A stretch of 46,657 nt of DNA from Actinomycetes bacterium (GTDB taxonomy: Bacteria > Actinomycetota > Acidimicrobiia > Acidimicrobiales > Ilumatobacteraceae): the NCBI GenBank assembly GCA_014190235.1, contig BJGC01000018.1:1-46657 (forward strand), read 5' to 3'. Positions 1,037-27,484 of the stretch are shown piece after piece. The notes under the pieces are model-generated. The model worked only from the letters and a program-made list of their open reading frames with translations. It was not told the DNA's origin and did not search any database. The translations under genes were made by a program, and so were the position numbers. The first letter of the stretch is position 1. Each line of letters starts with the position of its first letter.

Positions 1037-1708
1037 ATGACCTTTGACCGCATGATCGCTCTCGACTTTGAAACCACAGGGCTCAACCCTGGGTATCGGC
1101 CACTAGAAATTGCCTGGGTGGAATTCGACAGCAACTTCAATGAAGTTGAGCAGGTGAACTCACTCATCAATCCGCACATTCCCATTGAGTCTGGTGCGCA
1201 ACGAACACATGGCATCTCGGCTGAAATGCTAGTGAATGAACCTTCACTTGACGACTTCCTCAAGAAAACACATGCTGGCAAGTTTGCTAACGAACACGTG
1301 CTTGTTGTTGCGCACAATGCGTCGTACGACGTTCCCATGTTCCTGCCGTATTGCAAGAAAATCACTGCACTGTGCACTATGCGCCTTGGCCAGGCGCTCT
1401 ACCCCGACGCAGAAAACCACAAGTTGAAAACGCTTGCTGCATTGCTCAATGTGGACATAGAACCAACCCACCGCGCACTTGACGATGCACTGACCAGTTT
1501 TTACCTCATGAAGAACATCGCTACTGCACGCAGTATGTCGATAGGTGAAATGCTCTTGCTCATTCTGAGTGCATCACTCGACAGCCCCATGCCTTTTGGC
1601 AAACACAAGGGAACAAAACTCAAAGACTTGCCTTCCGATTACGTGAGATGGCTGTTAGAGAACCTCGACCCTGATGGCTGGATAGTCGAAGCACTCTCGG
1701 GGCGGTAA
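1037..1708 (+). CDS. DEDD (DnaQ-like) 3'-5' exonuclease with C-terminal DUF3820-like module
   Basis: The 223-residue protein has an N-terminal DEDDh exonuclease fold of the DNA polymerase III epsilon type. ExoI is IALDFETTGL near residues 7-16, with the DxE metal ligands. ExoII is the region AHNASYD near 93-99. ExoIII is HRALDDA near 145-151, with the histidine and aspartate of the DEDDh type. After residue 185 comes MPFGKHKGTKLKDLPSDYVRWL, a short module like DUF3820, which is often found attached to such exonucleases. It probably trims 3' ends of DNA or RNA during repair or turnover rather than serving as the replicative proofreader, since it is separate from any polymerase gene. It lies 243 bases before recC in the same direction. 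Confidence 0.85.
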   Translation: MTFDRMIALDFETTGLNPGYRPLEIAWVEFDSNFNEVEQVNSLINPHIPIESGAQRTHGISAEMLVNEPSLDDFLKKTHAGKFANEHVLVVAHNASYDVPMFLPYCKKITALCTMRLGQALYPDAENHKLKTLAALLNVDIEPTHRALDDALTSFYLMKNIATARSMSIGEMLLLILSASLDSPMPFGKHKGTKLKDLPSDYVRWLLENLDPDGWIVEALSGR

Positions 1709-1951: not shown

Positions 1952-4900
1952 ATGAGTCTGAAAGTTGAATATGTCAGCCGACTATCGGATGTGCTTGCCC
2001 CTGCGGTTGAGTATCTTCGCCAGCCTGTTGAGATATTTGCCAAGCAGCATATTGTCGTGCCAACTGCCGGCGTCAAAGCTTGGCTCATGTCTGAGGTGGC
2101 AAAACAACTTGGCACAAGCAGTCCAAATTCGCAAGATGGCATTATTGCCAATGTTGAAGTTGATTTTCCTGGTTCGCTTACAAAGTTTCTAAAGCCACAG
2201 GTAATGGGTGAGCGAGATCCATGGTTGATTGAAAACCTCATGTTTTATGTACTCGATGTCATCTCCGCCGATGCCCAGTACAAACCAATCATCAAGCGAT
2301 CAGGCGGCCCACTTATCGCGGCTCGTTCGATCGCTGATCGCTTCGATCGCTACCACGTGCGCCGACCAGCAATGATTCGTTTATGGGAGCAAGATAAGGC
2401 AACGGTCAGTCCCACCGCTCACAATCCAAATGTCAAGCAACTCAATGCCACCGATATGTGGCAGTTCGAATTGTGGAGTGCAGTCCGAAAACGAATTGGC
2501 CAGCCAAGCCCTGCTGCACGCAAACCAGAGCTCTCGGTCAAAACCCCAAAACAGATTTTGGTCATCGGGTTTCAATCGCTGAGTCCAGGTCAGATTGATG
2601 CATTGTTGCAACTAAAAGATCATTTGGAAGTACATGTGGTGTTGGTGCACCCATCGTCAGCCATTTCACAAAAGTGGAATGTATCTACCGGTTCTTCAGT
2701 TGGGTTGATCCCCGAGCGCAGTCCTTCTCCGGTGTTGCCCGCCGACATAGACCCATTGGTTAACTCGTGGTTGCAGGGTTCACATGAGTTGGAAACATTG
2801 CTCACATCTCAAGACATCAATGCGACACATAGAGCAAGTAGCAATACTCAGGCTAAAACGCTTCTTGGTCGAATGCAAGCAACGGTTACTCACGATTTGT
2901 TGGCTAGTGAAGCATCAATCAGGAATGACGATCGCTCGCTCGTAATCCACAGATGTCACAACTTGGGCCGACAGGTTGAAGTGCTACATGATGCATTACT
3001 GCATGCGTTTACCGATCTTGATAATTTGCAACCACACGAGATTGTGGTGATCTGTCCAAATATTGAAGCCACCGCACCGTATCTAGAGGCAACATTTGCG
3101 CGAGTCCTCAAAGTTGCCGGCCGCACAATCAAACTGCCGCTTGTAGTCGCAGACCGCGGTATTCGTCAGGTCAATGAAGGTGCCGAACTGATGGCACGAC
3201 TGATTGATTTAGTGCAGTCGCGTTGTTCGGTAGATGGGGTACTTTCTGTTGCTACATCACCATTGGTTCTCAAAAATCTTGGTGTTAACTCTGAAGGTGT
3301 CGAACATTGGTATCGCTACACCAGTAATGCCAATGTACGTTGGGGTCTCACCATTGAGCACCGCAAGCGCAATGGTCTAGATGCGCCAGAGTTGAGTGCT
3401 CACACATGGCGCAATGCGTTAGAGCAAATGTTGTTGGGCGCATTGGTTCCTGATGCTACAAAGACGTTTGATGCCCTCGGTGTTGATGCTCTAGATGATG
3501 TTGATTTGTCAGATATTGATGAAATCTCGGCGCTCATAAAAGTTTTTAATGTCGTGTTAACCCTCTCTGATCTGAGCAATCAGAACCGCACGGTAGAAGA
3601 GTGGTGCGCTGCACTTGAGGCCGCCGTTGTGGGGCTGTGTGGTGAAAACTGCGACGAGCTAGCAATACCGCTTGAGCAAATTGGTGCGCTGCGTGCTTCA
3701 GCCAGTGGAAACACTGTTGTTGTTCCCTACAGCGATGTTGCGAGCCAACTGAGCGACATGCTCAGCGAAGTTCCTGGCAGACAGCCATTGCGTACTGGTG
3801 CGATCACTGCTACATCAATGATCCCTCTTCGGGGAGTTCCATTTCGTGTTGTCTGCGTCGTTGGATTTGACGAGGAGTCATTGTCTTCAAGTGAGGGCGA
3901 AGGTGACGACCTGGTCGAACGACAACGACTGATCGGCGACCAGGATTCTCGACTGGATGTTCGCCGTTCGTTACTTGACGCAACTCTCTGCGCACAAGAT
4001 CGTCTGATCATCACGTGCACTGGGCAGAGCATCAAAAACAACCAACGTCTACCACTTGCTACGCCACTCGCCGAGTTTGTCGACTTTGCCCGCCGACTTG
4101 GGGTAGGGAAGCACCCAACCAACAAGCACCTCAGCGCTATTGAAGTTGAGCACCCGCGTCACACCACAAGCGTGCGCAACTTTTTTAAAGATTTGGTTCA
4201 ACCTGGCGTCATCTGGTCGCACGACGACGTAGCCCGCCAGGCCGCCACAACTTTGGGTGATCCCATCGCCACGTATCCCCTTACAGCAGTGACCGTGGGT
4301 GGTCCAATCGTGCTCACGCCTGATCTGTTGGAAACGATTTTCAACGAACCTCTCGAGGTGTATTTACGTCAGACACTTGAAATGTTTACATATCGAAAAA
4401 TTGAACAAGAGGTTCCTGCAACCATCCCGCTAGGTATAGACAAAAAAGAATCGGCCCGACTAGCCAAAGATCTATTGTTTTTTAATGCGACGCATCCATC
4501 TCAGGTTGCCATTGATGCTTGGGATGCTGAAGTCCTCCGCTCAGGTGTCGTACCTCCTGCTCGGTTTGGGGATGATGCAATCCAAGAGGTTCATGAATTA
4601 GTACAAGCGATGCAGGAAAAGCTCGCAGCGATGTCTATTGACGTGGCTGAGCTTGCCTCGGTGGATGTCGATATTGATGTTGCACCAGGAATCAAACTTA
4701 TTGGCGCAATCCCAATGTGCACGCAAGAAAAAGACATGATTGCAGTTGCAATCTATTTCAAGGCTGGGTCAAAAGAGTACGAATACCGACCAGCGCTGAG
4801 CCGTTTGGCTATTCGCTTGCTTATTGCGCGTGCCGCTGGACTCTCGATTAAAAAAGGCTACGTGCTTGCTCGTCATGAGGACTGGCCCAAGAAACAAAAC

Positions 4901-5248
4901 CATATTGTGCGCGAACAGACCGTCATTCTGGATCCTTTGGTAACACAAATAATAGCTCAAGAGCGATTGGCCGCACTATGTGACATGGCCCGCACTGCAC
5001 TGGTTTCGCCATGTGCCAGTTTTGGCAAGACAGCCAGCGCTGATGATCAAGAGATGCTCAATGAGTTTGATCTATTTGTATCGCGTGATGACTTTCACGA
5101 ATCCCAAGAGTTCATCATTTTTGGTGGAGAGCCTGAGTATGGGGATATTTTCCACGCAAAAAGCCCCATTCTTGGTTTTTGGAAGGAACATAAAAAACTG
5201 TTCACTTTTCCAAAAAGAGATTCCGCAAAGGAGTACCTGGTCTCATGA
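1952..5248 (+). CDS. recC: Exodeoxyribonuclease V subunit gamma (RecC)
   Basis: The 1098-residue product has the size of RecC (about 1100 residues), the subunit of the RecBCD helicase-nuclease that splits the duplex and scans the 3' strand for the Chi recombination signal. RecC is an inactivated SF1 helicase, so no intact Walker A is expected and none is seen. The N-terminus has the RecC-like strand HIVVPTAGVKAWLM near residues 32-45, and the middle has IPLRGVPFRVVCVVGFDEESLS near 624-645, the family's counterpart of a helicase core region (typical RecC has MVPLRSIPFRVV). The start is fixed by AGGAGG at 1943-1948. The end overlaps recB by four bases (ATGA), showing translational coupling. The order recC-recB-recD is the usual actinobacterial one. 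Confidence 0.93.
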   Translation: MSLKVEYVSRLSDVLAPAVEYLRQPVEIFAKQHIVVPTAGVKAWLMSEVAKQLGTSSPNSQDGIIANVEVDFPGSLTKFLKPQVMGERDPWLIENLMFYVLDVISADAQYKPIIKRSGGPLIAARSIADRFDRYHVRRPAMIRLWEQDKATVSPTAHNPNVKQLNATDMWQFELWSAVRKRIGQPSPAARKPELSVKTPKQILVIGFQSLSPGQIDALLQLKDHLEVHVVLVHPSSAISQKWNVSTGSSVGLIPERSPSPVLPADIDPLVNSWLQGSHELETLLTSQDINATHRASSNTQAKTLLGRMQATVTHDLLASEASIRNDDRSLVIHRCHNLGRQVEVLHDALLHAFTDLDNLQPHEIVVICPNIEATAPYLEATFARVLKVAGRTIKLPLVVADRGIRQVNEGAELMARLIDLVQSRCSVDGVLSVATSPLVLKNLGVNSEGVEHWYRYTSNANVRWGLTIEHRKRNGLDAPELSAHTWRNALEQMLLGALVPDATKTFDALGVDALDDVDLSDIDEISALIKVFNVVLTLSDLSNQNRTVEEWCAALEAAVVGLCGENCDELAIPLEQIGALRASASGNTVVVPYSDVASQLSDMLSEVPGRQPLRTGAITATSMIPLRGVPFRVVCVVGFDEESLSSSEGEGDDLVERQRLIGDQDSRLDVRRSLLDATLCAQDRLIITCTGQSIKNNQRLPLATPLAEFVDFARRLGVGKHPTNKHLSAIEVEHPRHTTSVRNFFKDLVQPGVIWSHDDVARQAATTLGDPIATYPLTAVTVGGPIVLTPDLLETIFNEPLEVYLRQTLEMFTYRKIEQEVPATIPLGIDKKESARLAKDLLFFNATHPSQVAIDAWDAEVLRSGVVPPARFGDDAIQEVHELVQAMQEKLAAMSIDVAELASVDVDIDVAPGIKLIGAIPMCTQEKDMIAVAIYFKAGSKEYEYRPALSRLAIRLLIARAAGLSIKKGYVLARHEDWPKKQNHIVREQTVILDPLVTQIIAQERLAALCDMARTALVSPCASFGKTASADDQEMLNEFDLFVSRDDFHESQEFIIFGGEPEYGDIFHAKSPILGFWKEHKKLFTFPKRDSAKEYLVS

Positions 5249-8200
5249 GCAATATTGAACTTGACCTCGCACGGCAACCGATCCTCAACGGCATGGTCAC
5301 TGAGGCTAGTGCTGGTACCGGAAAGACGTACTCGGTTGCTGCTTTGTTGGTACGCGAACTTGCAACAGATGAAAACTTGCGTATTAGTGAAGTATTGGTC
5401 ACTACTTTTACCCGTACCGCTGCAGCTGAACTACGTGATCGTATTCGTGGTGCCGCCATCAGCACTTGTGACCAGTTGCGCAGCAATAAAGCAAATGCGG
5501 ACGATGTCATGGCAACTCATTTGTTGCAGACCTATCCGCACGATATTGGTGCGATGATCCATCGGCTCGAGCGTGCACTAGTCGAGTTTGACAGTGCCAC
5601 CATCTCCACGATTCATAGTGTCTGTACCAAGGTTTTACACCTGGCCGGTGTCAGTCTGGGCAATGTTGGCGAGGACGACATCACGAGTCGGGTCATCGCC
5701 GAGGTGGTCAATGATGCAATAGTGTCACGCACTGTTGCCGGCATAGACGTTTCACGCTTGAATGCAGGTCGCATGGCAGAGGTTGTGGCCAAGTTGTTGT
5801 CTGATCCATTTACTGAACCGTGGATGGATCCAACCCAAAATCCATTTATGACGGAGGCACAACCGATCTCTGTGGATGATCAGAATTTTTTGGATGAGTA
5901 CCTCGAGATGCTTGAGAAGTGTAAGGCTCGTGTTCAAGATGCGACGCTCAATCACCCGAGTTTTAATGATCTCTTAAAGCGGGCTCATGATGTAGTCACA
6001 GATAAATCGCGTGGTGCCTTGATTAACGACATTCGATCACGCTTTAAATTAGCCATTGTCGACGAGGCCCAAGACACTGACAAGTTGCAGTGGGAGTTTT
6101 TTGACGCACTTTTCCCCCCGGATCAAATCGATCGTGCGCTTATCGCCGTGGGTGATCCGAAGCAAGCAATATATGGTTTTCGTGGTGCTGATGTACGCGC
6201 ATTTGTGCTTCGTATAGATCCTGCGAAGAAGCGAACTCTTACCACTAACCATCGATCAGATAAGCCTGTGCTTGACCAACTCAACACTGCGCTATCCGGC
6301 GCGTTGTTTGGCGATCAGATTCCGTATGTCAATGTCAAAGCAAGTCCCAAGAACCCTGTGTCACGATTCGGTCCGATAAACCCAGTTGAGTTTGTTGATG
6401 TGGGCAAGATCACGAACCAAAATCGACTTGACAAACCAACTGCCCAAGTGGTGCACGAATTGTTGACAGTGGGCAAACTCACCATTGATGGAGTGCAGCG
6501 AGACATTGAGCCTCGAGATATCTGCGTGCTCGTGCGCACCAAAGCCACGGGTCGGGCAATCGAACGCAAACTCAAGCAGTTCAAGATTCCTGCAGTCAGC
6601 AATGGCACTGAATCGGTCATGGAAGGTGCGATGGCGAGTCATGTTCGGTCGATGCTTGAATTGATGGAACGTATTACGGATGTCGGTCGTACTCGCCGAG
6701 TGGCCAGCACGCCATTCTTTGGTCTGTCAATTCGCCACGAACACGATATTTCAGATCTAGATCTGCAACGAATCCAAAATCGCGTCAGCGATTTGCGTTC
6801 AGTTTTACAATCTGGTGGCGTTGCCACGCTTGCTGGAGCCATCAATTCGGATGATCAGTTCATGACTCGTCTCACCAAAGGTTCCTCTGGCGAGCGCCAC
6901 ATCACCGACTTTGCGCACGTGATGGATGTTCTGCATGTTGCTACCGATGGCAAGCCGTGCACGCCAACCCACCTTCTTGAAGTATTTATGTCGCTCATCG
7001 ACGCCGATGAAACAAGCGAATTGGTAAGTAGGCGAGTAGAGAGCGACGTTGATGCTGTACAGATCATGACCATACACAGCGCTAAGGGTCTGCAGTTTCC
7101 GTGTGTCGTTGTAGCCGACCTTTGGAAGCCGGCTACTGCGCCTCGTGGAGCACCAGTTTTCTATAACCAAAACCAACGTGTTGTCGACATTGTTCACGGA
7201 TTGGAAAGCCCGACTGAGTCCTCACGGGTTGCGTCAAAAGAAGCTGTGAAGGATGCCGCAAATGCCGAAATGAGTCGAGTCATGTATGTGGCTCTCACGC
7301 GCACGATGTATCACCTCTCGGTACTTGTTACTGATGACGCACAAAGCCGCTTGCCAACAATGGTGCCGCACATACCCGATAAGCGAGCCCTCGCAAGTGT
7401 GGCCAAGCTAAAGAGTTATAAGATCAAAAACGCTAAGCCAGATGCGAGTAAATTCTCCTGCGCAAAATCCACCGCTTCCACTTCTCAGTCCTATCGCCGT
7501 ACATCGTTCTCGGGCATTATGGATATTCACAAAAAGTCCCATCGCCGTGATTATTTTGAACGACCTGGTCATGGCAATGATGAGTTCGGCAATGATGATA
7601 ATCAATTTTCAAATCAAGAACCGAGCGAGTTATCAGATCTGCTCAAATCAATCACGATTCCGGTTGTTCCTTCAAGTAAACACGTCGGTGATCAGATCCA
7701 CGAGATTCTGGAGTTCGTTGACATGTCGGCTCGACCGTTGCGCGATGAGGTGGGTCGAGCAGTAGGGCAAGTAGCAACTTCAAGTTTGTTGCGCAGATAT
7801 CACCAGCCACTGATCACAATGCTCACTCGTGCTCTGGAAACTCCATTTGGTGGGGCATTCGGCGACGTCTCGTTTGCCGATATTGATCCGAGCGATCGTC
7901 TTGCCGAAATGGATTTCGAAATGTCAGTCGCCTTATCCGATGCAAATATCATGGTGAGCGACATTGGTCGAGTCCTGCTATCCGTGTTAAGCCCAACTGA
8001 TGTGCTTTGCAACTATGCAACATCACTTACTGATTCATCTTTTGACATTTCAATCGCCGGTCTGATTAATGGATCGCTTGACGCATTGCTTCGCTTGCCG
8101 GGTAGCACTCCAGATCAGCCGCTGCTGGCCATTACCGACTACAAGAGCAACAAGATGCATCAAGATGATGACGAGTCGCCAATGTCTGGATATTCGCCAC

Positions 8201-8475
8201 AACATGTACAGGCAAAGATGGAAGAGGCGCACTACATACTGCAAGCACTTATTTATGGAACGAGTATTTATCGCATGTTGCGTTGGCGACTTCCCAAAGC
8301 CAATCACGATGCGTGCATTAAGGGTATTGCTTACGGCTTTTTGCGCGGAATGGTTGGGCCTGAAACGCCGGTTGATGCAAACGGTCATCGGTATGGAGTA
8401 TTTACGTGGCAAGCCCCAGTCGGTTTGTGGTCGGCTCTGAGTGACTTATTTGCAGGAAAGAAGCCAACTCAATGA
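5245..8475 (+). CDS. recB: Exodeoxyribonuclease V subunit beta (RecB)
   Basis: RecB is the 3'-5' helicase and nuclease subunit of RecBCD. UvrD-type SF1 motifs are visible: Walker A in EASAGTGKTYS near residue 20-30, Walker B DEAQD near 273, motif III GDPKQAIYGFRG near 303, motif V with HSAKGLQFP near 611, and motif VI with YVALTRT near 681. The C-terminal nuclease domain retains SLDALL and then DYKSN near 966, followed by YILQALIYG, matching the RecB nuclease motif with its metal-binding aspartates and catalytic lysine. The protein is 1076 residues, a little shorter than the roughly 1180 of the E. coli subunit. Its start overlaps recC by four bases and its end overlaps recD by four bases, so all three subunits are probably made in fixed proportion. 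Both helicase and nuclease look active. Confidence 0.95.
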   Translation: MSNIELDLARQPILNGMVTEASAGTGKTYSVAALLVRELATDENLRISEVLVTTFTRTAAAELRDRIRGAAISTCDQLRSNKANADDVMATHLLQTYPHDIGAMIHRLERALVEFDSATISTIHSVCTKVLHLAGVSLGNVGEDDITSRVIAEVVNDAIVSRTVAGIDVSRLNAGRMAEVVAKLLSDPFTEPWMDPTQNPFMTEAQPISVDDQNFLDEYLEMLEKCKARVQDATLNHPSFNDLLKRAHDVVTDKSRGALINDIRSRFKLAIVDEAQDTDKLQWEFFDALFPPDQIDRALIAVGDPKQAIYGFRGADVRAFVLRIDPAKKRTLTTNHRSDKPVLDQLNTALSGALFGDQIPYVNVKASPKNPVSRFGPINPVEFVDVGKITNQNRLDKPTAQVVHELLTVGKLTIDGVQRDIEPRDICVLVRTKATGRAIERKLKQFKIPAVSNGTESVMEGAMASHVRSMLELMERITDVGRTRRVASTPFFGLSIRHEHDISDLDLQRIQNRVSDLRSVLQSGGVATLAGAINSDDQFMTRLTKGSSGERHITDFAHVMDVLHVATDGKPCTPTHLLEVFMSLIDADETSELVSRRVESDVDAVQIMTIHSAKGLQFPCVVVADLWKPATAPRGAPVFYNQNQRVVDIVHGLESPTESSRVASKEAVKDAANAEMSRVMYVALTRTMYHLSVLVTDDAQSRLPTMVPHIPDKRALASVAKLKSYKIKNAKPDASKFSCAKSTASTSQSYRRTSFSGIMDIHKKSHRRDYFERPGHGNDEFGNDDNQFSNQEPSELSDLLKSITIPVVPSSKHVGDQIHEILEFVDMSARPLRDEVGRAVGQVATSSLLRRYHQPLITMLTRALETPFGGAFGDVSFADIDPSDRLAEMDFEMSVALSDANIMVSDIGRVLLSVLSPTDVLCNYATSLTDSSFDISIAGLINGSLDALLRLPGSTPDQPLLAITDYKSNKMHQDDDESPMSGYSPQHVQAKMEEAHYILQALIYGTSIYRMLRWRLPKANHDACIKGIAYGFLRGMVGPETPVDANGHRYGVFTWQAPVGLWSALSDLFAGKKPTQ

Positions 8476-10166
8476 ACGTTAATTTGACTCCGTACGTAAA
8501 GGCAAATGTGCTTGCAGATTGCGATGTCGCTGCAGCCAAGACTCTTATTGGGTTAGTTGAGCGTAAAGGTGATGCAGTCCCTGATCTTTTGGGCACCCTG
8601 CTATTGTGTCTAGCATTACGTGGGCCTCGGGACCGACATACATGCATTGATCTTGATCACATTTCTGATTGGCTCACACCTGAGGGTATTAAAGCGCAAC
8701 TCGAATGGCCAACTGATTCAGCAACATGGCTCGCTGCAACTAAGACGTGCCCTTTAATGTTTGGTGATCCAGGCGCTGTGACGCCACTCATTGTTGATGG
8801 TGGTCGCGTATATCTCAGTCGGTCATACGCCGAAGAAGGTGCAATTGCGGCAGTCCTTACACGCAATAATGCTCAGCATGTACACATCATTCTTGGTGGT
8901 CCAGGTACCGGAAAAACGCGCGAAGTAGCGATGAAGTTTATTGATCACTTTAGAAAGGGAGAACGTGACATCAGAATTGCACTGGCGGCACCAACTGGTA
9001 AGGCCGCTGCTCGTATGCGCGAGGTGCTATTGCGCCAGTGTGATGAAATCAAGAAATTACCAGAAGGTAAAGATGTTGATTGGGACGCAGTGAATGCAGC
9101 AATAAGTGCAGCGTTTTCGGGCACTGTGCATTCGCTGCTCGGGTTTGGCCCATCTCGTGATACGCGTTACAAATATAATGCCAATAATTTTTTGCCTTTT
9201 GACTGGGTGGTGGTTGACGAGGTATCCATGCTTCCTTCGTCGATGATGTATCGACTCGTAGACGCTTTAGATCCATCAACGGCGCTGCTCATTGTGGGTG
9301 ATCCTGATCAACTCGCAAGCGTGGATGCTGGTTCGGTTCTGGGCGACATCGCCAAGGTTGCGACAAAAAAGGGTTCCATCCTATTTCCGCAAACAAAAGT
9401 TATGCACGAACAACATCGTCTTCCAAAAGAGATCGATGGGCTTGCGCGTCTGTTGCGCCTAGAAGCCCCAGTCGATGGCCAGGTACTTGGCGACTCTCGG
9501 CATGTTGATGCAGTTATCGACTATCTGCGGACGAACAAAACTCTGATTTCGTGGATCAATCCCAATATCGATAGTGATCAACTTGCCGTGGTGCGCAACA
9601 AAGTTGTCCAACATGCTCGAGAATTGCACACAGTAGCGATGAGCAAAGATTACCAGGCTGCGCTCGACAAGCGTCAAGAGTTGCAATTGCTCTGTGCACA
9701 CCGTGAGGGCAAAACAGGGGTGAGTTATTGGAACGGGTTCGTTGATAGTCAACTCGGGCCTTACACAGAAACTCGTTGGTATTTTGGCCGCCCAGTTATG
9801 GTGACGAGCAACAACAGGTCTGTAGATCTCTATAACGGTGATGTGGGAATCATCGTGCCCGACGAAGATGGCCAGCCAGTCGGCGCATTCAGCGATGGCG
9901 GCACATTCCGCCTTGTGCCGACAATGCGCCTCGAAGACATAGACACCGTCCATGCCCTCACGATCCACAAGAGCCAAGGTTCCGAATATGACGAGGTGAT
10001 AGTCGATCTGCCAAATGAGTCGAGTCGGATTCTTACACGCGAGCTCTTTTACACTGGCATCACCCGCACTAAGCAACGACTCACAATCATTGGGTCAGAA
10101 GGGGTATTACGAAGTGCCGTGTCTCAAGCTATTCACCGCACGTCCGGCCTCGCCGTCCGAATTTGA
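8472..10166 (+). CDS. recD: Exodeoxyribonuclease V subunit alpha (RecD)
   Basis: RecD is the 5'-3' helicase subunit of RecBCD. The 564-residue protein has an N-terminal alpha-helical region that should contact RecC, then SF1B motifs: Walker A in GGPGTGKT near residues 142-149, motif Ia with AAPTGKAAARM, Walker B DEVSM near 249, motif III GDPDQLASVDAGSVLGD near 277, motif V with TIHKSQGSEYDEV near 497, and motif VI YTGITRTK near 526. Length is close to the family's usual 600. The ATG overlaps the recB stop in ATGA, confirming an operon. All helicase residues I can check are present, so the protein should be a working motor. Confidence 0.94.
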   Translation: MNVNLTPYVKANVLADCDVAAAKTLIGLVERKGDAVPDLLGTLLLCLALRGPRDRHTCIDLDHISDWLTPEGIKAQLEWPTDSATWLAATKTCPLMFGDPGAVTPLIVDGGRVYLSRSYAEEGAIAAVLTRNNAQHVHIILGGPGTGKTREVAMKFIDHFRKGERDIRIALAAPTGKAAARMREVLLRQCDEIKKLPEGKDVDWDAVNAAISAAFSGTVHSLLGFGPSRDTRYKYNANNFLPFDWVVVDEVSMLPSSMMYRLVDALDPSTALLIVGDPDQLASVDAGSVLGDIAKVATKKGSILFPQTKVMHEQHRLPKEIDGLARLLRLEAPVDGQVLGDSRHVDAVIDYLRTNKTLISWINPNIDSDQLAVVRNKVVQHARELHTVAMSKDYQAALDKRQELQLLCAHREGKTGVSYWNGFVDSQLGPYTETRWYFGRPVMVTSNNRSVDLYNGDVGIIVPDEDGQPVGAFSDGGTFRLVPTMRLEDIDTVHALTIHKSQGSEYDEVIVDLPNESSRILTRELFYTGITRTKQRLTIIGSEGVLRSAVSQAIHRTSGLAVRI

Positions 10167-10184
10167 TGTGGCGTGATAGTTTTT

Positions 10185-10215
10185 ATTTGAAGTTTTGTTG
10201 GTTTTTTCAAATAAT
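10185..10215 (+). promoter_or_regulatory. Promoter with embedded inverted repeat, possible operator
   Basis: A perfect 7-base inverted repeat, ATTTGAA at 10185-10191 and TTCAAAT at 10206-10212, has a 14-base spacer. It overlaps a possible promoter: TTGAAG at 10187-10192 and AATAAT at 10210-10215 with 17 bases between. Each arm touches one promoter box, the geometry expected of a repressor site. The -10 box ends 5 bases before the ATG at 10221. It separates the unknown pair from recD. Confidence 0.4.
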
Positions 10216-10220
10216 GAGGG

Positions 10221-10529
10221 ATGCAAGTGGCTCAAAAGAAAACAAGAAAAGTGCTTGATGTTGCCAAGAAAGTTGGCAAAAAGGCAGGCAAGAAGAGTAT
10301 TGAAGTTGCAGGGAAAGCTGCCAAAGAAGTGCGTAAAGGCACAGGCAAAGGAATCAGTGTTGTAACTGGCGCCGAGAGTTATCTAAAAAAGGCTGCATTG
10401 GTAAATGCCGAGTTGGATGTTGCAATTGCAAAGTTGGAAGATGCCTTGAAACGACGTGATCTGGATATAGAACGATTGACTCAACGTATTTCAGAACTGG
10501 AATCAACTCGCAATACCGACAAGGATTGA
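10221..10529 (+). CDS. Lys-rich histone-H1-like protein with C-terminal coiled coil, unknown function
   Basis: The 102-residue product has two parts. The first 50 residues are very basic, with runs such as AKKVGKKAGKK and about 13 lysines, and resemble the Lys/Ala repeats of histone-H1-like bacterial nucleoid proteins, so DNA or RNA binding is likely. From about residue 55 to 95 there is a heptad-like amphipathic segment (AELDVAIAKLEDALK, then IERLTQRISELES) that should form a coiled coil, giving dimers or a partner contact. Start choice is open: ATG 10221 follows a -10-like box by 5 bases, while an in-frame GTG at 10227 has GAGGG at 10216-10220 as a possible ribosome site. It begins 54 bases after recD and ends 2 bases before the next gene's ATG, so it is probably co-transcribed with that gene. 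I do not recognise a named family. Confidence 0.75.
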   Translation: MQVAQKKTRKVLDVAKKVGKKAGKKSIEVAGKAAKEVRKGTGKGISVVTGAESYLKKAALVNAELDVAIAKLEDALKRRDLDIERLTQRISELESTRNTDKD

Positions 10530-10531
10530 CG

Positions 10532-11593
10532 ATGGTAAGAACCAAAGCACTCAGAGTCGGTCAAGATATCGAAGAGTCCATTTTGAACGATCGCTTGTCA
10601 CTAGCCAGTCGACTGACTGCACTTGCTGACAGTGCTTCGGGCTATAGGTCCGCAAAGTCACCTCTATGGGATGGAACCGTGCCAATCGCTGTGGCTGGCG
10701 TTATGGATGCACTTCGTTTCAGCAAAGTTGATGTATCGCTGGGTGGAAGTGATGTAACCCACCAAGAGTTTGTTGATGCTCTGAATAGAACTCACGTTGA
10801 CCCTCAAACCTTGCAAGATCATGTGGTCGAACGAGCCAGAGGTGGTTTCATTGCCGTTCGAGGAGCCTATTTTGAAAACCACTTAGTCGAAGGAATTCGA
10901 AATAGGACGATTCCTCTGCCCAAAGGGGTGGATCATGTGCAATTGAATTCGTTTACTCATCCTGGAAGCGATTTAACGATGTTCGGCGACCACGGCCAAG
11001 TGATTGTTGAGGCAAACGCAAAGGCAGCATCATCAGCCGCAGTGATACTCGAACACTTTGAGCGTTATCCTGACGTGCCGGTGGTGTATGCGACAACAGA
11101 AGCAGCGCAGGATGCTGCTCGTCATGGAATTCGCGTAATCGGATCTGGGACAAAATCTTTCATTCTCGATGGTCATCCAACTGTCATTGATATTGGTGAA
11201 ACTGCGGCATCATACGATCAGCAACTACATGCACTTGCATCTGGTCATCATGAATCATTTCTGCATTTCTTTGGTACGCATGATCTATTAAGTCATATTC
11301 CATGGATAAGCGGTGGAGTGATTGCATTTCGAATGTTTAGGCGTTATCAAGCGGGGATGGAGCGTGCAGATAATCTTCAGCAATTAGGCCGTGAGAGCGC
11401 ACGCTCAGCATCTGCATTGGCAGTTGGAGGTATATTGCAACACGCAGGAGTGCCTATTCCGGTCACAGTTATCGGCACATTGTGTGCTGCGTCAGCTGCT
11501 CAAGGCGCATTTGATGTTCGCGATAGTTGGAGCATGCTGTCAGCACAAGAGACTCTTATTTCTCAAAGAGCCCAGTCTCTTTTGCTGCTGTAA
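10532..11593 (+). CDS. Unknown protein with possible PD-(D/E)XK-like core and hydrophobic C-terminal region
   Basis: I do not recognise this 353-residue protein. ATG 10532 is preferred over TTG 10526 because AAGGA at 10521-10525 sits 6 bases before it. The middle has an arrangement reminiscent of a PD-(D/E)XK nuclease core: a helix with FENHLVEGI (Glu115), then LNSFTHPGSDLTMFG (Asp147), then QVIVEANAK (Glu160, Lys164), then a helix and the strand PDVPVVYATTE. The usual ExK or QxK is spaced as ExxxK, so activity is doubtful. Residues 253-270 and about 294-325 are hydrophobic and rich in Gly and Ala (SALAVGGILQ, VTVIGTLCAASAAQGA), suggesting membrane contact. It is coupled to the Lys-rich coiled-coil gene just upstream and lies directly after recBCD. 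The nuclease-like fold is inference only. Confidence 0.75.
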   Translation: MVRTKALRVGQDIEESILNDRLSLASRLTALADSASGYRSAKSPLWDGTVPIAVAGVMDALRFSKVDVSLGGSDVTHQEFVDALNRTHVDPQTLQDHVVERARGGFIAVRGAYFENHLVEGIRNRTIPLPKGVDHVQLNSFTHPGSDLTMFGDHGQVIVEANAKAASSAAVILEHFERYPDVPVVYATTEAAQDAARHGIRVIGSGTKSFILDGHPTVIDIGETAASYDQQLHALASGHHESFLHFFGTHDLLSHIPWISGGVIAFRMFRRYQAGMERADNLQQLGRESARSASALAVGGILQHAGVPIPVTVIGTLCAASAAQGAFDVRDSWSMLSAQETLISQRAQSLLLL

Positions 11594-11628
11594 AAGTTAA
11601 AAGTTTGGGCTCTTTGTTCCCATTTTGA

Positions 11629-11986
11629 TCAGTCGTCACGAATGCTGAAATACTTGAAGTAGTGCAGGGAGTCCTGTTGGCTGTGGCCCGCACTGGTCAT
11701 CTCATCGCACTAAAGTTGTTATCGGTGGCGCCTGCACGGGAAACAGATGCTATAGGCTTGAGAAATCTTGCCACTATCGCCACGCAAGACGAGTAGAACC
11801 TGGCAAGCGAGGCAATCGTACAAATCCAAGGACGTGCTTTTGTCAGGGGACGTCGACTTGACGCTGAATTACTCACACTTCGCAATGCCATGCTCTGAAG
11901 CAAAGATTCACACCATCTTTGAGGGCACCTCAGAGATCCAGCAGCTGGTGATTGCCCGTGCAATCTCTGGCCTGCGCATCGAGTAA
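11629..11986 (+). pseudogene. Acyl-CoA dehydrogenase 3' relic
   Basis: The end of this stretch (to the TAA at 11984-11986) encodes SEAKIHTIFEGTSEIQQLVI and then ARAISGLRIE, a clear acyl-CoA dehydrogenase C-terminus. Just upstream, in another frame, EAIVQIQGRAFVRG matches the preceding conserved segment (usually AVQIhGGyGf.rE), so at least one frameshift lies near 11890. That second frame has an in-frame TAG at 11794-11796, and upstream of it a hydrophobic run (ILEVVQGVLLAVARTG) of doubtful origin. The catalytic and FAD-binding parts are missing. The rest of the gap up to 12126 (11987-12126) holds nothing I can identify. The relic is unrelated in position to the intact acyl-CoA dehydrogenase at 29843. 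Confidence 0.7.
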
Positions 11987-25723: not shown

Positions 25724-27406
25724 TTAGTTACGTGCAAACTTGCGAAGCACGCGCCCTGGTCGGTCTCCGGTGTGGTGTCCTTGCTCGGTAACAACTGTGC
25801 CGTTGACGATGGTTGCGGCATACCCACGAGCCTTGATGATGAAGCGACCCTTGCCGTTAGGAAAATCATTGACATAGGTTGGGTATTCGGTTTGAAGTTC
25901 TTGAGGATTGAAAATGTTGATGTCAGCAAAATTGCCAACACTCAAGGTGCCACGCTCAATGAGTCCGAGCACGGCAGCAGGTTTAGCAGTGAGTTGATGA
26001 ACAGCCTTTTCAAGAGAAACGCGCTTGCGATCGCGGTACCAGTGTGACAAATAGTGTGTTGGCGCGTCGGCATCACAGATCTGTCCAGCGTGTGCACCAG
26101 CATCGCCGAGCCCTGGGCACACATTTTCAAGTTGCAAAAACTCATTCATTGATTCTGTGTTGCGATTAAAGAACCATGTGTTGTAGAGCTCTCGTCCTTC
26201 GCTTTCGATGAGTCTGTCAACGATAAGTTCGACGGGCGTTTTGCCGGTGCGTGTTGCGAGTGTGGCAAGCGACACTGGGTTGACTTCGTTGTAGTCGGGG
26301 AGATCTCCAAGTCCGAGTGGATGAATAAATGCAGGGTCATACCAGGTTCCCTTTTTGTTGCCTTCTTCGAGTAATTCTGCACGTCGTGTGTTGTCGCGCA
26401 AGACAGCAACACGTTCTTCAACAGAGGGAAGTGCCATCATCTTTGTCCATGCTCCGCCCACTACTGGGGGAGTTTGAACGAGTCCAGTCAAAGTGCCACC
26501 GGGGCGAGTCATCGTGACAGTTGAGATAGGTCCGATGTTTTGGCTTGTGTCGGTAAGAAACTTGTTCCAGCGCGACACACTTTCGAGGTCTCCGTCTCCC
26601 GCACCGCCAGAGAACAACACGCCAGAACCTTTTTGCGCCATCGTGCGCAGGAGGTCGAACTCGTATTTTGGTTTTGTTGTGAAATCATTCACGGCTTGAA
26701 ACAATCCACCGCCAGCACGATTCATTCCCTCAGCAATCGCGGTGTATTCCTCGGTCATTGAATATGTTCCTGGAACACAGCGGCCATCTGGCACCGTGTG
26801 CAGCAATAGACGAGACGTTGAGTATCCGACAGCACCACCGGCGACAGACTCTTGGGCAATTTCTGCCATGCGAGCAAGTTCTTCTGGAGTCGGGATTTCA
26901 TCGGTGAGAGAACGTTCTCCCATCACTTGATATCGCACTGCACAGTGACCTACTAACCCAACAACATTTAATGCAGGTCGCATTCTTTCGACGGAATCTA
27001 AATATTCTGGGTATGTCTCCCAGTCCCACGGCAGTCCTTCAAGAATTGCTTGACGAGGGATGTCTTCGACGCTCTCCATCATTTCGGCTAGATAGGCACG
27101 ATCTTTTTCGATGACAGGGGCAAACGTGACTCCACAATTTCCCATTAACACGGTTGTGACTCCGTGCCACGAACTTGATGTCATAAACGGATCCCAGCCG
27201 ATCTGTGCATCAAGGTGAGTATGCAGATCGACGAATCCAGGTGACACAGTGAGTCCGGTTGCATCAATCTCTCGCGTGGCTGTGCTGTCAGACAAGTTTC
27301 CGATTGCAGCAATGCGATCACCCGTGATGGCGACATCTGCCCGTATCGATGCGTTTCCAGTGCCGTCAACCACTGTGCCATTGCGAATGATGATGTCGTA
27401 GTTCAT
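25724..27406 (-). CDS. D-aminoacylase-type amidohydrolase
   Basis: The 560-residue metal-dependent hydrolase has DLHTHLDAQIGWDP with the HxH metal ligands near residue 65, GNCGVTFAP, GHCAVR, and a late GDAGAHAGQ aspartate. These match the amidohydrolase group that includes N-acyl-D-amino-acid deacylases and dihydroorotase-like proteins. It probably hydrolyses a cyclic or acyl amide; the substrate is unknown. ATG 27406 has GAAGG just upstream and is preferred over TTG at 27433. It starts an operon with the downstream SDR, and the TIM-barrel isomerase gene 78 bases upstream is on the same strand and may share the transcript. Confidence 0.87.
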   Translation of the reverse strand: MNYDIIIRNGTVVDGTGNASIRADVAITGDRIAAIGNLSDSTATREIDATGLTVSPGFVDLHTHLDAQIGWDPFMTSSSWHGVTTVLMGNCGVTFAPVIEKDRAYLAEMMESVEDIPRQAILEGLPWDWETYPEYLDSVERMRPALNVVGLVGHCAVRYQVMGERSLTDEIPTPEELARMAEIAQESVAGGAVGYSTSRLLLHTVPDGRCVPGTYSMTEEYTAIAEGMNRAGGGLFQAVNDFTTKPKYEFDLLRTMAQKGSGVLFSGGAGDGDLESVSRWNKFLTDTSQNIGPISTVTMTRPGGTLTGLVQTPPVVGGAWTKMMALPSVEERVAVLRDNTRRAELLEEGNKKGTWYDPAFIHPLGLGDLPDYNEVNPVSLATLATRTGKTPVELIVDRLIESEGRELYNTWFFNRNTESMNEFLQLENVCPGLGDAGAHAGQICDADAPTHYLSHWYRDRKRVSLEKAVHQLTAKPAAVLGLIERGTLSVGNFADINIFNPQELQTEYPTYVNDFPNGKGRFIIKARGYAATIVNGTVVTEQGHHTGDRPGRVLRKFARN

Positions 27407-27484
27407 GAGCCCTTCCGAAGATTCGTTGCTCAATAATTATACGGCAATTCCGCTCACACTTCCGAGTTCAAGCCAGTTCTGAGG

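Follow-up and report, generated by a model that had tools for sequence, protein, structure and literature searches.

A conserved gene pair behind recBCD in an Ilumatobacteraceae genome may form a membrane-tethered, nuclease-fold defence unit

Two genes follow recBCD in a genome of the family Ilumatobacteraceae (GCA_014190235.1, contig BJGC01000018.1). Their position raises the question of whether they belong to RecBCD or form a unit of their own, and what such a unit may do. The present study analyzed the whole stretch of 46,657 nucleotides that contains them (the window) and their relatives in other genomes.

The gene pair and its flanking signals

Gene A spans positions 10221-10529 (+) and encodes 102 aa; gene B spans 10532-11593 (+) and encodes 353 aa from ATG 10532. 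A gap of 2 bases separates them, and 54 bases lie between the end of recD at 10166 and gene A. A first-pass annotation of the window had described this arrangement, and its coordinates are borne out. The features are as follows.

1952..10166 (+), recC, recB and recD, confirmed by profiles; the recB nuclease motif is intact by eye
10183..10214 (+), perfect 9-nt inverted repeat between recD and gene A, arms 10183-10191 and 10206-10214 with 14 nt between them
10221..10529 (+), gene A, amphipathic basic N-terminus and C-terminal coiled coil, likely start GTG 10227
10245..10343 (+), residues 9-41 of A, amphipathic helix by hydrophobic moment, best angle 97 degrees (11/3 type)
10377..10502 (+), residues 53-94 of A, coiled coil common to the A proteins of relatives, by shuffle-tested comparisons
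10532..11593 (+), gene B, nuclease-fold domain and hydrophobic C-terminal region
10841..11209 (+), residues 104-226 of B, PDC-M72B-like, PD-(D/E)XK-like core (E115, D147, N162-x-K164) by profile comparisons
11444..11500 (+), residues 305-323 of B, hydrophobic segment (Kyte-Doolittle 1.62 at residue 305), the single hydrophobic stretch at the C-terminus
11564..11616 (+), strong hairpin across the stop of B (-24.8 kcal/mol, z -5.75)

GTG 10227 is the better start for gene A, with GAGGG 6 nt upstream of it. Gene B has AGGA 6 bases before its start, lying over the end of A. Since homologous pairs occur in five other genomes, A and B are real genes and more than chance open reading frames.

The pair had been credited with a promoter-like repeat. 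The inverted repeat is real and rarer than expected by chance, with 0 of 1000 shuffles as good and at least 9 nt reached in 3 of 1865 window tiles. However, the promoter match on it (9 of 12) was not above chance, with 4 sites in 2.5 kb against an expected 2.7 +/- 2.0, and the repeat is absent upstream of the pair in five relatives, among which G269 has a different 7-nt repeat. Shared regulation was rejected because the repeat is not conserved; in the window, it is possibly an operator or promoter region. The hairpin possibly marks the transcript end of the pair; it has no clear U-run, and a terminator scan did not pick it up. Directly after the pair, positions 11768-11986 (+) encode a short remnant, the C-terminal part of an acyl-CoA dehydrogenase (phmmer E 0.0038 to 3nf4), which suggests an old rearrangement breakpoint.

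Distribution of the pair

Whole-genome searches found B in 3 of 199 relatives and in 4 of the 397 genomes searched from the order. At the level of the phylum, 2 of 396 genomes carried it, as did 1 of 66 in the class to which G572 belongs. These sets overlap, and their union is six genomes including that of the window (G000, G016, G163, G269, G410, and G572). An A-type coiled-coil gene stands upstream of B at all six B loci found in the phylum, and at five of them it overlaps B (G016, G163, and G410) or lies within 34 bases of it (2 bases in the window and 34 in G572). The A-type gene of G269 is approximately 0.4-0.6 kb from B, the start of which is uncertain and the end of which is cut by the contig. 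We concluded that A and B are a conserved two-gene unit; whether the pair stays together had been a check proposed by the first-pass annotation, and it does.

Window B is 33% identical to the B of a genus-mate, versus 76% for a protein that we take to be GatA-like. In a tree, window B was no nearer to the genus-mate's B than to that of G410, with branching that was not well supported. Therefore, the distribution of the pair is patchy, and the pair either changes fast or has moved between genomes. The PDC-M72B profile (see below) alone matched in 1 of the 397 genomes of the order, namely, the window's own.

Distant relatives of B occur in an Acetobacteraceae MAG (L004, genome G866), on plasmids of Paracoccus, Yoonia, and Sulfitobacter, in 4 of 289 genomes of the class of G866, and on one contig of a viral collection (L056). 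A mobile-element origin of the window pair was tried as an explanation, and B had no matches in plasmids, phages, or viral contigs. The viral contigs also had no match for the B of G016, L004, L035, or L037; they held one relative, L056, of the Sulfitobacter protein. L056 encodes a transmembrane partner and a nuclease-fold protein at 4271-5729, the latter being 76% identical to the Sulfitobacter plasmid protein. A further pattern match, L039, was judged from its reading frames to be a chance match.

Relationship to RecBCD

The nuclease motif of RecB, which we take to be D..DYK, is present in the window, and a RecB without its nuclease was thereby ruled out. A gene for a DnaQ-type exonuclease lies directly upstream of recC at 1037-1708 (+) (RNase_T E 1.5e-24).

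Of the six genomes, that of the window and G572 have the pair beside recBCD, in the latter approximately 2.2 kb behind recD. The recD search covered six genomes, G866 among them. Two of the five other phylum genomes with the pair have recD (G410 and G572), and the genes are adjacent only in G572; recD of G410 is on another contig than the pair. No recD was detectable in G016 (an 80% complete genome), G163, or G269. Hence, the idea that the pair stays beside recBCD did not hold.

Within the genus, 12 of 32 genomes, including that of the window, gave a recD match, and the eleven others are 35-46% identical to that of the window, compared with 76% for the GatA-like protein of G016. None of ten other recD loci of the genus is followed by the pair (eight with at least 0.9 kb of 3' flank and two with approximately 0.2 kb), and B was not found at all in the genomes of these loci, several of which carry what is presumably leuD in place of the pair. 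recBCD is patchy in the genus and may behave like an accessory locus (L006-L016). A and B did not match the RecB, RecC, or RecD profiles. We concluded that the pair is not a RecBCD part because three pair-bearing genomes have no detectable recD. A function common to the pair and RecBCD is possible and not required.

Fold and predicted active site of protein B

B matched no Pfam or NCBIfam family above the cut-off and no PHROG below E 0.02, and searches of solved structures gave chance-level matches only. The core of B is homologous to a candidate defence family: PADLOC PDC-M72B matched it with E 2.4e-7 and 28.9 bits (positions 40-152 of 193 of the profile), the tool giving no curated cut-off. 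Window B also touches PDC-M09B at E 0.038. PDC-M72B (PDLC04784/PDLC04785) is an unvalidated phage-defence candidate, and matches relatives of B with a QxK motif (Q-type) at up to E 2.1e-33. In contrast, window B has NxK, not QxK, as well as an extra N-terminal region and the hydrophobic tail. PDC systems were proposed by 'guilt-by-embedding', mostly without experimental support (PMC12988326, PMC10855318, PMC12409345), and one of these sources reports that no activity was found for two other PDCs (PMC12409345). Our literature search found no paper on PDC-M72 or PDC-M09. A has no PADLOC match, and no PDC-M72A, a profile whose existence we infer from the system name, was among the matches listed for the scanned neighbours.

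A PD-(D/E)XK core had been proposed from the motifs FENHLVEGI, PGSDLTMFG, and QVIVEANAK. All three are present in B, and E115, D147, and an xxK at 162-164 stand in the expected order. However, no direct match to a PD-(D/E)XK profile above controls was obtained, and the fold is reached through relatives only. We built an N-type profile from four window-type cores, a Q-type profile from seven distant relatives (six with QxK and G1027), and an Mrr profile from ten Mrr_cat domains found in 10 of 61 genomes. The N-type profile matched the Q-type profile strongly (E 3.4e-13, probability 98%, score 78.8 versus at most 20.6 in 150 shuffles). Between the Q-type and Mrr_cat profiles, hhalign gave a score of 29.4 and E 3.1e-4 for one comparison, with a probability of only 39%; the best of 150 column shuffles scored 12.5 (0 of 150 reached the score) and the reversed control 13.0. 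In this alignment, the conserved E, D, and QxK of the Q-type relatives fall on the E, D, and QxK of the Mrr_cat (PF04471) branch of PD-(D/E)XK. Compared directly with Mrr, the N-type profile was not above its controls (score 15.2, with 2 of 150 shuffles as high and 18.0 for the reversed profile). The fold assignment is thus a two-step chain, of which the first step is strong and the second is good against shuffles and modest in probability. B likely has an Mrr-like PD-(D/E)XK fold. Window B departs from Mrr_cat by an N in place of Q/E, a hydrophobic tail, and a small partner gene, and the Pfam Mrr_cat family matched 0 of 13 B family members scanned. A PDDEXK_5 match in 1 of the 13 (E 0.0045) was set aside because unrelated families score alike.

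AlphaFold2 models, with alignment rows taken from the window, L004, and L056, were of low confidence for both B (two rows, pLDDT 33) and the Q-type core (three rows, pLDDT 44). The order of secondary structure in these low-confidence models is compatible with an alpha-beta-beta-beta-alpha-beta core. Foldseek and VIA-align with the Q-type core model yielded nothing useful (best E 0.029, best Z 5.3).

The predicted active site is D..NxK in the window, G016, G410, and G572, with N162 at the usual place of E/Q; the catalytic D...(D/E/Q)xK is therefore not found in window B, which has D147 and K164. E115, D147, N162, and K164 are four of the 33 invariant positions among 317 columns in these four proteins. 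The site lysine is lost in G163 and G269. The first-pass annotation had already regarded the site as non-standard, which agrees with these results. Mrr-like domains are typically PD-QXK (PMC3874165). In the present study, the distant relatives have a D...QxK core, except for G1027 with NxK. In a midpoint-rooted tree of the core (13 rows), a branch with support 96/94 separates the six phylum proteins from the others, and G163 and G269 are joined at 100/100. One relative in the class of G866, beside type III restriction genes (L036 4869-6479), has NxK and groups with the QxK proteins. Therefore, the change from Q to N seems to have happened more than once.

Membrane features of the pair

A matched no Pfam or NCBIfam family above the cut-off, no PHROG below E 0.02, and 0 PADLOC families at E up to 1. 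Residues 9-41 have a hydrophobic moment of 0.594, a value reached by 4 of 2000 shuffles (0.366 +/- 0.068). An 11/3 helix turns by 98.2 degrees, which is typical of lipid-binding amphipathic segments. Peaks at 97-98.5 degrees were also found for the A proteins of G163 (27 of 2000 shuffles as strong), G269 (21 of 2000), and G410 (57 of 2000); the periodicity was not significant in G016 (337 of 2000 shuffles as high). Thus, four of the five testable A proteins (window, G163, G269, and G410) have an 11/3 amphipathic N-terminus. The corresponding region of G572 is strongly hydrophobic (Kyte-Doolittle 2.91), with two membrane-length segments by eye, and is not amphipathic. Net charge varies: the first 53 residues of window A carry +11, versus only +3 in G163 and +5 in G016. 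The simplest property common to these N-termini would be membrane attachment.

The coiled coil of window A resembles those of G016 and G410 (0 of 500 shuffles as high in each comparison) and G572 (6 of 500). The links between the window and G163 (53 of 500), G016 and G572 (29 of 500), and G410 and G572 (298 of 500) are weak; G269 was left out of this comparison.

Residues 305-323 of B possibly insert into the membrane. The B homologue of G410 has hydrophobicity peaks of 2.6-2.8 further on than this segment. The first-pass annotation had linked the pair to the membrane, a link supported by the amphipathic or hydrophobic N-terminus of A and the hydrophobic stretch of B. Judging from these features, membrane anchoring of the pair is likely.

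Genomic neighbourhoods of relatives

In G572, recD (by profile) and recB (by eye) precede the pair; the opposite strand in between carries a NERD-UvrD helicase, and PDC-M26A/B follow the pair. The neighbours in G410 are a DrmC-like PLD protein and a Mokosh-like helicase, those of G964 a cytosine methyltransferase and a NERD helicase, and those of G1027 a type III restriction pair. The Acetobacteraceae relative (L004 7102-13751) is beside DpdA (E 1.3e-159) and genes that we take to be QueE-like and DGQHR-like; this is probably a 7-deazaguanine DNA-modification island. An annotated DUF262 gene lies near the Sulfitobacter relative. No defence gene was recognised by eye beside the pair in G163, the neighbours of which were not scanned against PADLOC. 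Defence genes stand beside several relatives, in line with the defence context proposed earlier. Since the scanned neighbours were hand-picked without a random-locus baseline, and the flanks of G917, G1095, Paracoccus, Yoonia, and L056 were outside the PADLOC scan, this is a lead and not a measured enrichment.

Only 2 bases separate the end of B in G016 from the start of an SF1-helicase-like gene (UvrD E 8.4e-6), and no neighbour in this genome has a strong PADLOC match. The pair sits there in a same-strand cluster (L017 784-7483 (-)) with two coiled-coil-like proteins, a 156-aa protein, and the 1093-aa SF1-helicase-like protein; PADLOC matches in the cluster are weak, for example to the ZorA and JetC coiled coils. 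A gene that is presumably a D-aminoacylase lies beside the pair in G016 and G163. It was dropped as a shared surrounding because such a gene is unlinked to the pair in the window (25724-27433).

In the distant relatives, the place of A is taken by a transmembrane partner or by a domain fused to the N-terminus. The partner or fused domain matches PDC-M09A in L041, L056, and L040, and not in L004, L024, L035, or L036. In contrast, the window partner is a small amphipathic coiled-coil protein without a PDC-M09A match.

Discussion

The best reading of the pair, judged from sequence comparisons, is a membrane-tethered form of an unvalidated kind of defence candidate. We give roughly an even chance to a unit in which A anchors B and B acts on DNA near the membrane. 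A would bind the inner membrane face via its amphipathic N-terminus (hydrophobic in one relative) and hold B through the coiled coil. B would combine an Mrr-like PD-(D/E)XK-fold domain with a hydrophobic tail, and would most likely cut or grip incoming foreign DNA. The binding of A to B, the membrane location, DNA cutting, and the anti-phage role are what we infer from the features described above. A bolder and distinctly improbable version would have an alpha-synuclein-like anchor hold an Mrr-fold D..NxK nuclease at the membrane, where it would cut injected DNA and feed the ends to helicase-nucleases such as RecBCD. The nuclease fold would be kept, whereas the anchor could be exchanged among an amphipathic helix, a hydrophobic hairpin, and a PDC-M09A-like membrane domain, either separate or fused.

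B may instead be a dead nuclease fold, a membrane-held sensor or scaffold that binds DNA or nucleotides with A as its anchor. The N in place of E/Q in four proteins and the lysine lost in G163 and G269 are in its favor. However, E115, D147, N162, and K164 are invariant in four proteins in which only 10% of columns are, and a drifting dead site is not expected to keep these residues; we consider a dead fold unlikely, while taking it seriously. The pair is quite improbable as a RecBCD accessory that works on DNA ends or protects them. It directly adjoins recD in the window and is near it in G572, beyond an opposite-strand NERD helicase; however, it also occurs in three genomes without detectable recD and away from recD in G410, and is missing from the ten other recD loci of the genus and from their genomes.

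The first-pass annotation had A as a histone-like DNA binder guiding B, to which the charge of +11 lends weight. Histone H1-like nucleoid proteins have a basic, low-complexity DNA-binding tail without amphipathic periodicity. In contrast, the basic region of A is an 11/3 amphipathic helix in most testable orthologues, is hydrophobic in G572, and carries little net charge in G163 and G016. We find this model very improbable. A toxin-antitoxin pair, in which the small upstream A neutralises B, would account for the patchy spread and for a tight small-plus-large operon that overlaps in three relatives. However, none of the alphaproteobacterial B relatives whose upstream flank was read was seen with an A-type partner; these relatives instead have a transmembrane partner or carry a fused N-terminal domain, and we rate a toxin-antitoxin pair as the least probable of these explanations.

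The present study gives a nameless pair beside recBCD, whose partner A matches nothing in the libraries searched, a testable identity as a candidate membrane-tethered, nuclease-fold unit. It also raises the question of whether a PD-(D/E)XK site can work with Asn in the place of Glu/Gln. If the pair is active, the PDC-M72 and PDC-M09 candidates would have one effector fold in common, with exchangeable membrane anchors.
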